NCBI GenBank assembly: GCA_947472885.1
Contig: CANJBX010000012.1
Coordinates: forward strand, 1-64,000
Source: Hyphomicrobiaceae bacterium
GTDB taxonomy: Bacteria; Pseudomonadota; Alphaproteobacteria; Rhizobiales; Xanthobacteraceae
DNA length: 64,000 bases
Direction of reading: 5' to 3'
Positions 31,118-55,082 of the stretch are shown here, one piece after another. Under the pieces are notes generated by a model. It was not told the origin of the DNA, searched no databases, and worked only from the letters and a program-made list of their open reading frames with translations. A program made the position numbers and the translations under genes. The number at the start of each line of letters is the position of its first letter. Positions within the stretch are counted from its first letter, which is position 1.

Positions 31118-31819
31118 ATGCCGACGATCGCCCTGGTGGACGATGACCGCAACATCCTGACCTCGGTCTCGATTGCCCTCGAAGCCGAGGGCTACAAGAT
31201 CATGACCTATACCGACGGCGCTTCCGCCCTCGACGGGTTCAAGACGTCGCCGCCCGACCTCGCCATCCTCGATATCAAGATGCCGCGCATGGACGGTATG
31301 GAAACACTGCGCCGACTGCGCCAGAAGACCGATATTCCGGTGATCTTCCTCACCTCCAAGGACGAGGAAATCGACGAGCTGTTCGGCCTCAAGATGGGTG
31401 CCGACGATTTCATCCGCAAGCCATTCTCGCAGCGCCTGCTGGTCGAGCGCGTCAAGGCCGTGCTGCGCCGCGCCGCTCCCAAGGACGCAACTGCGCCGAA
31501 GGAAATCGACACCACCCGTGTTCTCGAACGCGGCCTGCTGCGCATGGACCCGGAACGTCACACCTGCACCTGGAAAGGCGAGCCCGTCACGCTGACGGTC
31601 ACCGAGTTCCTGATCCTGCAGGCGCTCGCGACCCGCCCCGGCGTGGTGAAAAGCCGCAACGCATTGATGGACTCCGCCTACGACGACCAGGTCTACGTCG
31701 ATGACCGCACCATCGACAGCCACATCAAGCGGCTGCGCAAGAAGTTCAAGAAATCCGACGACGACTTCGACATGATCGAAACCCTCTACGGCGTCGGCTA
31801 TCGCTTCAAGGAAATGTAA
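31118..31819 (+). CDS. chvI: Response regulator ChvI
   Basis: OmpR-type DNA-binding response regulator of the ChvG-ChvI (ExoS-ChvI) envelope/acid-stress system of rhizobia and relatives. The 233-residue protein has the acidic pocket VDDD at 8-10, phospho-acceptor Asp52 in [12 protein letters not shown], the conserved [22 protein letters not shown] and a winged-helix domain ([31 protein letters not shown]). It is 59 bases upstream of its kinase gene. Near-identity of motifs to the ChvI family makes the assignment strong. Confidence 0.95.
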
Positions 31820-31878
31820 GAGGCGACATCGCCTGCGTGATATGATGCGCTGCGCACAACCGCACGAGCGAGACGACC

Positions 31879-33822
31879 GTGCTGGATCGAACGTCTGAAA
31901 TCGACAACAACTCCGCCGACGGCGAAACGGGCGCTGCTGCGTCCGCGCCGCAAGGCACGCCGCCTGTGAAGCGCGCGTGGTGGCAGGCGCTGTTCGCGTT
32001 CATGCTGGCGCGCACAGTTGCGTGCGGCGCTTCGTTTCGCACCTCCGTGCAGAATACCGGCGAGAATTTCGGCTCCGCGTGGCGCGCGCTGCGCAACGAA
32101 GGCATCCTCGGCGCGTCGAAACAGGCGTGGCAGTCGATCATCACCTTCAGCTTCTCGAGCCTTTCGCGCCGCATTGTCTTCATCAATGTCGCGGGCCTTG
32201 CGGCCTTCGTCATCGGCGTCCTGTTTCTCTCGCAGTTTCGCGCCGGTCTGATCGACGCGCGCGTGCAGAGCCTGGTCGTGCAGGGCGAGATCATCGCCAG
32301 CGCGATTGCGGCGTCCGCCACGGCGGAATCCGATGCCATCACCATCGACCCGGACCGATTGCTGGAATTGCGCGCCGGTGAAAGCTACGGCCCGTCCGAC
32401 GACGCCATCTTCGGCCTTGAATTTCCGATCAATCCCGAACGCGTCGCACCGCTGCTGCGCCGCCTGATCTCGCCGACCAATACCCGCGCGCGCATCTACG
32501 ACCGCGACGGATTGCTGTTGCTCGACAGCCGCAACCTCTACGCACGCGGCGAAGTGCTGCGCTTCGACCTGCCCCCGCCGAATGCCGAGAAACCGGGGCT
32601 TATCGAACACGGCTATATCGGCATTAGGCGCTGGCTTGGCCGTGGCGACCTGCCGGCCTATCGCGAACTGGGTGCGGAAAACGGCAAAGGCTATCCCGCC
32701 GTCGCCGAGGCGCTCACCGGCCACAAAGCGAGCGTCGTCGCCATGAACGACCGCGCCGAAGTGATCGTGTCGGTCGCAATCCCCGTGCAGCGATTCCGCA
32801 CCGTGCGCGGCGCGCTGCTGCTATCGACGCAAGGCGGCGACATCGACCAGATCGTCGAAGCCGAGCGGCTGGCGATCCTGAAAGTCGCGCTGATCGCAAC
32901 CGGCGTGCTGATGGTTCTTTCGGTCCTGCTCGCCGGGACCATCGCTGGCCCGGTGCGCCGCCTTGCCGATGCCGCCGAGGCTGTGCGGCGGCGCGTGCGC
33001 TCGCGCGTTGAAATTCCCGACTTCACCAAACGGCGCGACGAGATCGGCGACCTCTCCGGCACCTTGCGCGCGATGACCGACGCACTCTACAGCCGCATCG
33101 AAGGCATCGAGAGTTTCGCCGCCGATGTCGCGCACGAATTGAAGAACCCGCTGACGTCGCTGCGCTCCGCCGTTGAAACCTTGCCGTTGGCAAAATCCGA
33201 GGACAGCCGCAAGCGTCTGCTCGCCGTGATCGAACACGACGTGCGCCGCCTCGATCGTCTAATCTCGGATATTTCCGACGCCAGCCGTCTCGATGCCGAA
33301 CTGCAGCGGCAGGACACCGCGCCGGTCGATCTGCGCAAGCTGCTCATCACTGTCGTCAGCGTCGCCAACGAAGTGCAGCGCGAGGATGGCGTCATCGTAT
33401 CGCTGACATTCGACGGACCGGCATTCATCGTGCCGGGCAACGACTCGCGCATCGGACAGGTCACCAACAACCTGATCGACAACGCGCGCTCGTTCTCGCC
33501 GCAAGGCGGCCGCGTGCAGGTGCTGTGCAAGCGCCTGAAGAACGATGTCGAGATCACCGTCGATGACGACGGCCCCGGCATCCGCCCCGACGCGATGGAA
33601 AAGATTTTCGAGCGCTTCTACACCGACCGTCCGCATCAGGGCTTCGGACAGAACTCCGGACTTGGCTTGTCGATTTCCAAGCAAATCGTTGAAGCGCACG
33701 GCGGCAAGCTCTGGGCGGAAAACCGCGTTCGGCCGGCACAGGAAAGCCCGGCCCAGGAAAGTCTGGCAGGTGAGCCTGAAATCGCCGGTGCGCGCTTTAT
33801 CGTGCAGCTACCGGCGATGTAA
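31879..33822 (+). CDS. chvG: Sensor histidine kinase ChvG
   Basis: Membrane partner of ChvI; senses envelope or acid stress and phosphorylates the regulator. Of 647 residues, a helix lies near 103-120 (VAGLAAFVIGVLFLSQF), then a periplasmic sensor, a second helix near 335-355 and a HAMP domain. The phosphorylated histidine is His419 in ADVAHELKNPLTSL. The ATPase boxes are NNLIDNA, DDDGPGI and SGLGLSISKQIVEAHGG. The start is GTG at 31879. The first 60 residues are a variable cytoplasmic extension. hprK usually follows chvG in related genomes; here it does not. Confidence 0.95.
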   Translation: MLDRTSEIDNNSADGETGAAASAPQGTPPVKRAWWQALFAFMLARTVACGASFRTSVQNTGENFGSAWRALRNEGILGASKQAWQSIITFSFSSLSRRIVFINVAGLAAFVIGVLFLSQFRAGLIDARVQSLVVQGEIIASAIAASATAESDAITIDPDRLLELRAGESYGPSDDAIFGLEFPINPERVAPLLRRLISPTNTRARIYDRDGLLLLDSRNLYARGEVLRFDLPPPNAEKPGLIEHGYIGIRRWLGRGDLPAYRELGAENGKGYPAVAEALTGHKASVVAMNDRAEVIVSVAIPVQRFRTVRGALLLSTQGGDIDQIVEAERLAILKVALIATGVLMVLSVLLAGTIAGPVRRLADAAEAVRRRVRSRVEIPDFTKRRDEIGDLSGTLRAMTDALYSRIEGIESFAADVAHELKNPLTSLRSAVETLPLAKSEDSRKRLLAVIEHDVRRLDRLISDISDASRLDAELQRQDTAPVDLRKLLITVVSVANEVQREDGVIVSLTFDGPAFIVPGNDSRIGQVTNNLIDNARSFSPQGGRVQVLCKRLKNDVEITVDDDGPGIRPDAMEKIFERFYTDRPHQGFGQNSGLGLSISKQIVEAHGGKLWAENRVRPAQESPAQESLAGEPEIAGARFIVQLPAM

Positions 33823-34117
33823 TTGCGGCTTAACAAGCCTGCGCGGCATAGGGCCGCGTGGATGGGTGCAAAGGCGCGGCCCATACCCACCTTGTGGTGT
33901 CGGAAAAGTAACTGGTTGGTGCCAGATTGCGGGCCTGCCGCCGGTCAAGCCCACAAATAGGGCCATCAAGACGGCTTATCGCCTATTGCCGCAACGCAAC
34001 AACAGCCTTAAATAGCCGCCTCGACAATCTACCGGCCCTTGCACGCGGGCTTTTGATGTTCAAGATGTGTGGCCTTTCGTGCTGCGTTATTTGAGTAAGC
34101 GCCCGCGGGGAGTTTCG
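33823..34117. other. Gap between chvG and the EIIA gene, lacking hprK
   Basis: About 295 bases without a convincing gene. It contains a hairpin with arms GGGCCGCG (33851-33858) and CGCGGCCC (33875-33882) but no T-run, and the EIIA ribosome binding site (GGGGAG, 34107-34112). I found no stretch encoding the GxSGxGKS P-loop of HPr kinase in any frame. Confidence 0.7.
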
Positions 34118-34519
34118 ATGATCGGCATCGTTCTTGTTACCCACGGACGCCTCGCTGTGGAATTCCGGCAAGCCCTGGAACACGTCGTCGGCGCACAGTC
34201 GCAGATTGAATCGGTCACGATCGGCCCCGACGATGACGTCGAGCAGCGCCGCTTCGAGATCATCGAGGCTGTGAAGCGCGTCGATACCGGCGAGGGCGTT
34301 GCCATTCTCACCGACATGTTCGGCGGCACCCCTTCCAACCTTGCGATCTCGGTCATGAGCCGCCCCAAGGTCGAAGTGCTGGCCGGCATCAGCCTGCCGA
34401 TGCTGGTCAAGCTCGCCAAGGTGCGGGAAACCTCGCCATTGCCGGAGGCCGTGGCCGCTGCCCAGGAAGCCGGCCGCAAATATTGCACCATCGCTTCCAG
34501 GGTCCTGGCGGGTAAATGA
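34118..34519 (+). CDS. PTS EIIA component, mannose-family type
   Basis: A 133-residue EIIA domain of the mannose/fructose superfamily. IGIVLVTHGRLAVEF contains the phosphorylatable His9; FGGTPSNLAISVM and VLAGISLPMLVKL are the family's other conserved blocks. No EIIB or EIIC is present, so this is a regulatory PTS branch as in other alphaproteobacteria, not a sugar importer. ATG at 34118 follows GGGGAG at a 5-base spacing. Its stop overlaps the HPr start by four bases (ATGA), so the two are coupled. Confidence 0.9.
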   Translation: MIGIVLVTHGRLAVEFRQALEHVVGAQSQIESVTIGPDDDVEQRRFEIIEAVKRVDTGEGVAILTDMFGGTPSNLAISVMSRPKVEVLAGISLPMLVKLAKVRETSPLPEAVAAAQEAGRKYCTIASRVLAGK

Positions 34520-34833
34520 GCGAGACGGGGGCCACCAGCGATATGTCTGCCCCTGCTTCCGGCACCGTCACCCGCGTTCTGCCGATCATCAACCAGAAGG
34601 GCCTGCACGCCCGCGCCTCCGCCAAATTCGTCCATACGGTCGAGATGTTTCAGGCCGAGGTCCGCGTCAGCAATGGCGGCGAACGGGTCGATGGCGCATC
34701 CATCCTCGACCTGTTGATGCTGGGCGGTGCGCCCGGCACCACCATCACGGTTGAAGCGACAGGCCCGCAGGCGAAGGAAGTCGTTGCTGCGCTGGAAAAC
34801 CTGCTGGCGACGCGATTCGGCGAGGACGAGTAG
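34516..34833 (+). CDS. Phosphocarrier protein HPr
   Basis: Small phosphotransfer protein receiving phosphate from enzyme I and giving it to EIIA. The 105 residues start with a 17-residue extension, then the HPr fold: active-site His31 in QKGLHARASAKFV, and the regulatory serine position Ser62 in DGASILDLLML, where HPr kinase would act. The serine is kept although hprK is missing from this locus. Overlaps the EIIA gene by four bases. Confidence 0.93.
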   Translation: MSETGATSDMSAPASGTVTRVLPIINQKGLHARASAKFVHTVEMFQAEVRVSNGGERVDGASILDLLMLGGAPGTTITVEATGPQAKEVVAALENLLATRFGEDE

Positions 34834-34894
34834 GCGGAAAGTTTCCTGCCCACTCACATGCTGCCCACTCTAAAGTCCCAAATTTTTTATTTTC

Positions 34895-34916
34895 GATATA
34901 AAGAAATCTTTATATC
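34895..34916. promoter_or_regulatory. 22-bp palindromic operator upstream of ahcY
   Basis: Perfect 10-bp arms GATATAAAGA and TCTTTATATC around AA, 102 bases before the ahcY ATG, in an AT-rich stretch. Position and symmetry fit a repressor site; an ArsR-type SAH-responsive SahR regulator is the obvious candidate given the downstream gene, but that identification is an inference. Confidence 0.65.
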
Positions 34917-35017
34917 CTCTTGCGATACATCTGGCGCGCTGCTATAGGCTCGCCGGACCCCCGATTGAGGGCTCCCCAAAAAATCATTTTTCAACACCGG
35001 GCCAAAAAAGGAACGCC

Positions 35018-36427
35018 ATGACCGCAACTAAAGACTGCGCCATCAAGGATCTCAGCCTCGCCGAATGGGGCCGCAAGGAACTCGAGATCGCCCAGGTTGA
35101 AATGCCGGGCCTCATGGCGACCCGCGCCGAATTCGGCGCCTCGAAGCCGCTCAAGGGCGCGCGCATCGCCGGCTCGCTGCACATGACCATCCAGACCGCC
35201 GTGCTGATCGAAACCCTGCAGGCGCTCGGCGCTGACATCCGCTGGGCCTCGTGCAACATCTATTCGACCCAGGACCACGCTGCTGCGGCCTGCGTCGCCG
35301 TCGGCACGCCGATCTTCGCCGTGAAGGGCTCGACCCTGAAGGATTACTGGGACTACCAGATCAAGATCTTCGAATGGGGTGACGGCGGCGTTCCGAACAT
35401 GATCCTCGACGACGGCGGCGACGCCACTTCGCTGATCCATCTCGGCCTGCGCGCCGAAAAGGGCGACGCCGCGTTCCTCGACAAGCCGGGCAACGAAGAA
35501 GAAGAATTCCTGTTCGCCGCGATCAAGGGCCAGCTCAAGGCCAAGCCGGGCTGGTTCAAGAAGTGCGCCGACTCGATCAAGGGCGTTTCGGAAGAAACCA
35601 CCACGGGCGTCCATCGTCTGTACGAAATGATGAAGAAGGGCGAGCTGCTGTGGCCCGCCATCAACGTCAACGACTCGGTGACGAAGTCGAAGTTCGACAA
35701 CCTCTACGGCTGTAAGGAATCGCTGGTGGACGGCATTCGCCGCGGCACCGACGTGATGATGGCCGGCAAGGTCGCGATGGTCGCCGGCTTCGGCGACGTC
35801 GGCAAGGGCTCGGCGGCTTCGCTGCGCAACGCCGGCTGCCGCGTGCTGGTGTCGGAAATCGATCCGATCTGCGCCCTGCAGGCCGCGATGGAAGGCTACG
35901 AAGTTGTCACGATGGAAGAGGCCGCGACGCGCGCCGACATCTTCGTGACCGCGACGGGCAACCTCGACGTCATCACCGTCGATCACATGCGCGCCATGAA
36001 GGACCGTGCGATCGTTTGCAACATCGGTCACTTCGACTCGGAAATTCAGGTCGCTGGCCTGAAGAACTTCAAGTGGCACAACGTCAAGCCGCAGGTCGAT
36101 GAAGTCGAGTTCCCGGACGGCAAGCGCATGATCCTTCTTTCGGAAGGCCGCCTCGTGAACCTCGGCAACGCGACGGGTCATCCCTCGTTCGTGATGTCGG
36201 CCTCGTTCACCAACCAGACGCTGGCGCAGATCGAACTCTGGGCCAACAACAAGGACGGCAAGTACAAGAAGGAAGTCTACGTGCTTCCGAAGCACCTCGA
36301 CGAAAAGGTCGCTCGTCTCCATCTCGAAAAGATCGGCGTCAAGCTCACCAAGCTGTCGAAGAAGCAGGCCGAATACATCAACATCCCGGAAAACGGCCCG
36401 TTCAAGCCGACCGCCTACCGCTACTAA
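35018..36427 (+). CDS. ahcY: Adenosylhomocysteinase
   Basis: Hydrolyses S-adenosylhomocysteine to adenosine and homocysteine, relieving inhibition of methyltransferases. The 469-residue product includes [28 protein letters not shown], the NAD-binding [15 protein letters not shown] and the C-terminal FKPTAYRY tail that caps the neighbouring subunit's NAD site. AAAAAAGGAACGCC is the ribosome binding site. It has its own promoter region with a 22-bp palindrome and a strong terminator, so it is a single-gene unit. Confidence 0.97.
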
Positions 36428-50711: not shown

Positions 50712-50820
50712 CCTTCTCCCCGCTTGCGGGGAGAAGGTTGGGATGAGGGGCTTCTTATTCGCTGCGGCTCCCCCTCACCCGGCGCTACGCGCCGACCTCT
50801 CCCCGTGAACGGGGAGAGGT
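50712..50820. repeat. REP-like palindrome pair
   Basis: CTTCTCCCCGC / GCGGGGAGAAG (50713-50736) and ACCTCTCCCC / GGGGAGAGGT (50795-50820) face each other between convergent genes. They are of the same kind as 54947-55082 and may also end transcription. Confidence 0.8.
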
Positions 50821-54946: not shown

Positions 54947-55082
54947 ACCCTCTCCCCTTGAGGGAGAGGGTCGCGAGCGCAGCGAGCGGGGTGAGGGGTC
55001 AGACCAGAGTTGCGAAGAAACCCCTCACCCGGTCATTCTCGCTTCGCTCGAATGCCCACCCTCTCCCTCAAGGGGAGAGGGT
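54947..55082. repeat. REP-like palindromes downstream of modC
   Basis: ACCCTCTCCC / GGGAGAGGGT around CTTGA near 54947-54971 and an inverted copy CCCTCTCCCTC…GGGGAGAGGG near 55059-55081, with GGGGTGAGGGGT (54988-54999) mirrored by CCCCTCACCC (55021-55030). A large composite palindrome between convergent genes. Confidence 0.8.

Follow-up and report, generated by a model that had tools for sequence, protein, structure and literature searches.

A predicted SahR operator upstream of ahcY and its regulator gene in a Hyphomicrobiaceae bacterium

SAH, a toxic side product of methylation, is sensed by the regulator SahR and broken down by the product of ahcY. SahR of the Alphaproteobacteria is an ArsR-type regulator with a 20-bp palindromic motif and the core targets sahR, ahcY, metH, metF and metK, joined by metE in some regulons; regulons of this type occur in 11 of the 15 Rhizobiales genomes studied (Leyn et al. 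2014, excerpts of PMC4239095). In Desulfovibrio, SahR is described as an SAH-responsive repressor (Novichkov et al. 2014, as cited in the excerpts of PMC8877191). For Ensifer aridi, which belongs to the same order as the organism studied here, excerpts of the latter paper report predicted SahR sites before sahR, ahcY, metH, bhmT and metK, as well as raised sahR expression in a sahR mutant, taken as autoregulation (PMC8877191). Two further systems invite comparison in the excerpts of PMC4239095. SamR of the Xanthomonadales is a SahR homologue with a palindromic operator, but it is only about 30% identical to SahR, has a 24-bp motif and does not have ahcY among its targets. The SAH riboswitch found at ahcY in beta- and some gammaproteobacteria serves the same gene and the same signal, but is an RNA element.

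The locus described here lies in a stretch of 64,000 nucleotides (the window). It resembles the alphaproteobacterial SahR regulon of PMC4239095, as excerpted, in its ArsR-type regulator, its palindrome of about 20 bp and its targets ahcY and sahR. It differs in having no detectable operator at metF-metE or metK, no metH and a solitary sahR, and the regulon predicted for Ensifer aridi in the excerpts of PMC8877191 is larger. Unlike the riboswitch-controlled genes, the window has no Rfam match.

The inverted repeat upstream of ahcY

The features of the locus are as follows.

34516..34833, forward strand: HPr-family phosphocarrier gene, the upstream neighbour, outside the switch (profile searches)
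34895..34916, no strand: predicted SahR operator, inverted repeat GATATAAAGA-AA-TCTTTATATC (own-genome pattern search and family conservation)
34920..34925, forward strand: putative -35 box of ahcY, TTGCGA, separated from the upstream operator by 3 bp (conservation)
34943..34948, forward strand: putative -10 box of ahcY, TATAGG, after a 17-nt spacer (conservation)
35018..36427, forward strand: ahcY, S-adenosylhomocysteine hydrolase, 469 aa (TIGR00936 above cut-off)
Contig C15, L003:6678-6699 and 6671: predicted operator at sahR of the same genome, 6 bp before the ATG

The initial annotation described a perfect 22-bp palindrome in a short AT-rich island upstream of ahcY and considered its symmetry too good for chance. 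The sequence GATATAAAGA-AA-TCTTTATATC is found at exactly 34895-34916. It is a perfect inverted repeat of two 10-bp arms separated by AA, and its end lies 101 bp upstream of the ahcY ATG (35018). Both 10-bp arms are thus perfect as claimed, but the AA centre is not self-complementary, so that the site is not a strict 22-bp palindrome. The AT-rich island is borne out by a GC content of 26% across 34870-34930, against 62% for the whole window.

The window contains three perfect repeats with 10-bp arms and a 2-bp spacer, this one included, where its order-1 Markov copies would lead one to expect 0.15. The remaining two (50714 and 50797) are GC-rich stems, and none of 40 such copies yielded an equally AT-rich repeat. 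When spacers of 0-10 bp are allowed, 20 matches appear (some being the same stem counted repeatedly), so symmetry by itself is no more than suggestive; the case for 34895-34916 is carried by sequence, context and conservation.

The open reading frame at 35018-36427 is identified as AhcY by profile search (TIGR00936 at 595 bits, cut-off 498). Ahead of it, positions 31118-34833 encode a response regulator, a sensor kinase, EIIA-man and HPr. In such a gene order, hprK usually lies between the kinase and EIIA; here the two are about 295 bp apart with no hprK seen between them, and a P-loop pattern went unmatched in all frames of the window. The HPr-family gene is a possible source of read-through into ahcY, and a terminator scan of 34700-35100 returned no terminator-like site.

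Separately, GC-rich palindromes with CTCTCCC/GGGAGAG-like arms lie at 50714-50735, 50797-50818, 54947-54971 and 55058-55082 of the window. Upstream of ahcY, such a pattern is seen in 16 of 51 operator-less relatives and in 0 of 91 with the operator. This element is a dispersed palindromic repeat that may have replaced the operator region.

The regulator gene and its co-occurrence with the predicted operator

The whole genome of the organism (3.88 Mb, 128 contigs, 99.4% complete) was searched for the motif with up to three mismatches. Only two sites were returned, one at ahcY and one at sahR, and none with the reversed control; a search with the 16-bp core at up to two mismatches likewise recovered these two sites only. 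The second copy, GATATAAAGATATCTTTATGTC, lies 6 bp ahead of the ATG of sahR on contig C15. Its 332-aa product combines an N-terminal ArsR-type winged helix (PF01022, HTH_5, 1.4e-16, residues 21-64) with a C-terminal methyltransferase-type domain (PF08241, Methyltransf_11, 1.5e-25, residues 160-255). A C-terminal SAM/SAH-binding domain of the methyltransferase type is typical of SahR. The GTGTGR motif is unchanged in 10 of 10 aligned proteins, and the motif ELTVSDL places T and S at the positions of the cysteines that metal-sensing ArsR proteins carry (ELCVCDL). The protein is 56% identical to a Mesorhizobium protein encoded before metF. These features fit SahR as described in the excerpts of PMC4239095. 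The sahR homologue that the initial annotation called for is therefore present: a single protein of the genome matches SahR at an E value of 1e-20 or better, and the sole other motif copy precedes its gene.

The sahR gene is solitary, flanked by a convergent amidase-like gene and by divergent trmO (L003:6867-7367), which encodes a SAM-using tRNA methyltransferase. Of the best 80 titled loci among at least 589 relatives, 38 have a trmO-like motif upstream, on the other strand, and an operator common to sahR and trmO may affect trmO too.

For phylogenetic footprinting, 149 genomes from 47 genera of the same family were sampled. The operator pattern occurs in 95/149 genomes (reversed pattern, 4/149), and SahR, at an E value of 1e-20 or better, in 95/149. 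Site and regulator are both present in 92 genomes and both missing from 51, leaving three with the site only and three with SahR only (Fisher p of 2e-32, which overstates independence since related genomes are pooled).

The six of 149 genomes that are discordant at the thresholds used can be considered individually. Among the SahR-only genomes, G062 and G110 carry ahcY sites of 16/20 (four mismatches, beyond the pattern cut-off) and G090 has no readable ahcY. Among the site-only genomes, G080 and G100 have an ahcY site of 19/20 without SahR; because both also lack metH, the contig with the sahR-metF-metH operon is likely missing from their assemblies. In the third, G094, the match lies away from ahcY and looks like chance.

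The region upstream of ahcY could be read in 142 genomes, 89 SahR-positive and 53 SahR-negative. Left out were the SahR-positive G019, G047, G067, G090 and G136 (no ahcY match) and G001 (no 5' end), together with the SahR-negative G034 (upstream region too short). All 89 readable SahR-positive genomes, spanning 31 genera, have a site of at least 16/20 upstream of ahcY, whereas 51 of the 53 SahR-negative genomes score 13/20 or less, confirming the predicted conservation of the palindrome at this gene. Genus g32 holds both states, and its site tracks SahR status. Chance symmetry without function, which has the window's three repeats against about 0.15 expected to consider, is refuted by this conservation (91 of 142 readable genomes, concordant with SahR) and has a practically negligible probability.

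The site also precedes sahR itself, in 30/30 family loci fetched (of 97 matches) and in 80/80 titled loci (those of the top 80 among at least 589 relatives), each of which scores at least 15/20. The titled loci come from Xanthobacter, Ancylobacter, Azorhizobium, Mesorhizobium, Microvirga, Pseudolabrys and others, and include metagenome-assembled genomes titled only at order or class level; six loci are common to the two sets.

A palindrome of about 20 bp thus stands before both sahR and ahcY, and the operator at ahcY links SahR to a gene of the SAM cycle. We conclude that 34895-34916 is very probably the operator of SahR, the ArsR-family regulator encoded on contig C15. The candidate SahR operator proposed at the outset is supported by the pairing with sahR in the same genome and by co-occurrence in the family. 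The match between this motif and that of SahR is inferred from lineage, length, symmetry and gene context. The genome encodes three further HTH_5 proteins in addition to SahR, which scores best of the four, and the motif is assigned to its protein by association, so a different ArsR-type or other regulator might control ahcY from this site. This is improbable, however, considering that the sole other genomic copy of the motif precedes sahR and that the motif is found or missing along with SahR, even within a genus.

Promoter geometry and proposed mode of action

The arms can fold as RNA (-8.1 kcal/mol, z of -2.9), which raises the alternatives of a riboswitch hairpin and of an intrinsic terminator for the upstream HPr gene. 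ATAA/TTAT is invariant in 91/91 ahcY upstream sites, whereas the outermost pair is non-Watson-Crick in 48/91 and the third pair in 35/91. Since one-sided changes in the outer arms are tolerated while ATAA/TTAT does not vary, protein recognition is indicated rather than an RNA hairpin. Double changes that preserve pairing occur at the outermost and third pairs in 6/91 and 13/91 sites, respectively, and a symmetric protein site would give them too. At gathering scores, Rfam returned no match in the window, including none to an SAH riboswitch in the ahcY leader, and none in the metF, metE, metK and sahR loci of the same genome. No T-tract follows the stem, whose position is upstream of the putative ahcY promoter. 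With the frequent pair-breaking changes and the empty terminator scan of 34700-35100, these results led us to reject a riboswitch or terminator, either of which is very improbable, in agreement with the initial preference for an operator over an SAH riboswitch.

Alignment of the 91 ahcY upstream regions on the operator revealed a TTG at operator start +26 in 78/91 and at +25 in 8/91, the window belonging to the latter; no other TTG offset exceeds 5/91. Beyond the TTG come a 17-nt spacer and then a -10 resembling TATAG (column +49, T 0.84; column +50, A 0.85). A generic sigma-70 scan requiring 9/12 matches to the E. coli consensus found no promoter in 34700-35100, so the -35 and -10 boxes of ahcY rest on conservation in relatives. 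By crude scoring, the 51 site-less genomes do not consistently show such a core promoter, although TTGCCA-N17-TATCTC can be read in one of them (G068), and they offer no clean case of a promoter retained after loss of the operator.

At sahR, the arrangement differs. A TTG is found at -19 in 71 of the best 80 titled loci among at least 589 relatives and in 19/30 family loci, which together with a 17-nt spacer places the -10 within the operator. The sahR of the genome under study is an exception; TTGCCC-N17-TATATC can be read there, with the -10 in the right operator arm. This reading would set the transcription start at about the ATG, and the mRNA may be leaderless. We infer that 3-4 bp separate the ahcY operator from a conserved -35 downstream of it, and that the sahR operator mostly covers the -10. 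The excerpts of PMC4239095 and PMC8877191 do not describe operator position relative to -35 and -10, and no novelty is claimed for it.

Following published SahR work, a SahR dimer would bind the repeat with one half-site per subunit and, at low SAH, repress both ahcY and its own gene. Rising SAH would bind the C-terminal domain and release SahR, so that AhcY would be produced and SAH hydrolysed. The geometry suggests, with less certainty, how repression might be exerted. At ahcY, the operator would cover positions from about -60 to -40 and stop just short of the -35, so that SahR would probably hinder sigma region 4 and the C-terminal domain of the alpha subunit; when free, the AT-rich operator could perhaps serve as an UP element. 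At sahR, the regulator would mostly cover the -10 directly.

The placement at ahcY, outside the putative core promoter, is unusual for simple repression. SahR could instead activate ahcY from upstream, at about -50 (for example, as SahR-SAH), and yet repress its own gene. The position upstream of the -35 with near-fixed spacing (TTG at +25/+26 in 86/91) is consistent with such activation, as is the different arrangement at sahR, where the TTG at -19 puts the -10 inside the operator (71 of the best 80 titled loci of at least 589, and 19/30 family loci). However, ArsR-family proteins are mostly repressors, and occlusion of an UP element would yield the same spacing. SahR is moreover described as an SAH-responsive repressor in Desulfovibrio (cited in the excerpts of PMC8877191), and activation is accordingly judged unlikely. 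As a tentative proposal, which we hold to be possible though somewhat less probable than its negation, repression by SahR would combine two promoter geometries and an AT-rich ahcY operator acting as an UP element with a regulon that shrank to AhcY after the loss of metH.

The predicted regulon in this genome and its relatives

In relatives, sahR is usually linked to methionine genes. A metF motif lies downstream of sahR in 79 of the best 80 titled loci (of at least 589) and in 28/30 family loci, and a metH motif follows sahR in 50 of these best 80 of at least 589, within the locus DNA available. In the genome of the window, the sahR-metF linkage is absent and sahR stands by itself, with metF and metE together on contig C88 and metK on contig C43. 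The metF and metK loci reach a best operator score of 12/20, which is the level of site-less sequences, and the whole-genome pattern search found no operator at metE. Only a 17-bit fragment matched metH, which is regarded as absent. The wider regulon of metH, metF and metK that had been anticipated therefore did not materialize in this organism. Among the 121 genomes with a completeness of 90% or more and a contamination of 5% or less, metH is missing from three, namely that of the window, G080 and G100. G016, whose AhcY is the nearest in the sample (93%), has no metF within 1.5 kb of sahR, but metH sequence is present. As judged from sequence, the usual sahR-metF linkage and metH have been lost from the window's genome, leaving ahcY and sahR as the sole detectable targets, and methionine synthesis in this organism seems dependent on the cobalamin-independent enzyme.

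Among the matches listed, six regions with extra sites were fetched from five genomes. In three relatives, SahR-type sites lie upstream of metE (L286:1474-1495, L287:1518-1539 and L289:1495-1516), 26-28 bp before a cobalamin riboswitch (RF00174, 124-132 bits), and metE in these genomes may be controlled by SahR as well as by B12. Two further sites of 17/20, L288:1519-1540 beside a TRAP transporter gene and L290:1472-1493 at an open reading frame of no family, are either chance matches or unrecognised targets. The sixth region, L291, is the chance-like match of G094.

The regulator, its operator of about 20 bp and the targets ahcY and sahR were known already (excerpts of PMC4239095), and the SahR-ahcY pairing described here is a well-supported new instance of this regulatory switch. 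Operator geometry and a shrunken regulon are modest additions to it. A palindrome spotted by eye is very probably a lineage-wide operator, linked to its regulator by almost perfect co-occurrence. The near-fixed spacing between operator and promoter leads to a simple, testable idea of how one regulator might act differently at two promoters, and the genome of the window appears to provide a natural example in which a regulon has been cut to one metabolic target. If the proposal outlined above is true, release of SahR by SAH would both lift a block and expose a strong ahcY promoter, and SahR would be a dedicated SAH-to-AhcY switch in this lineage.
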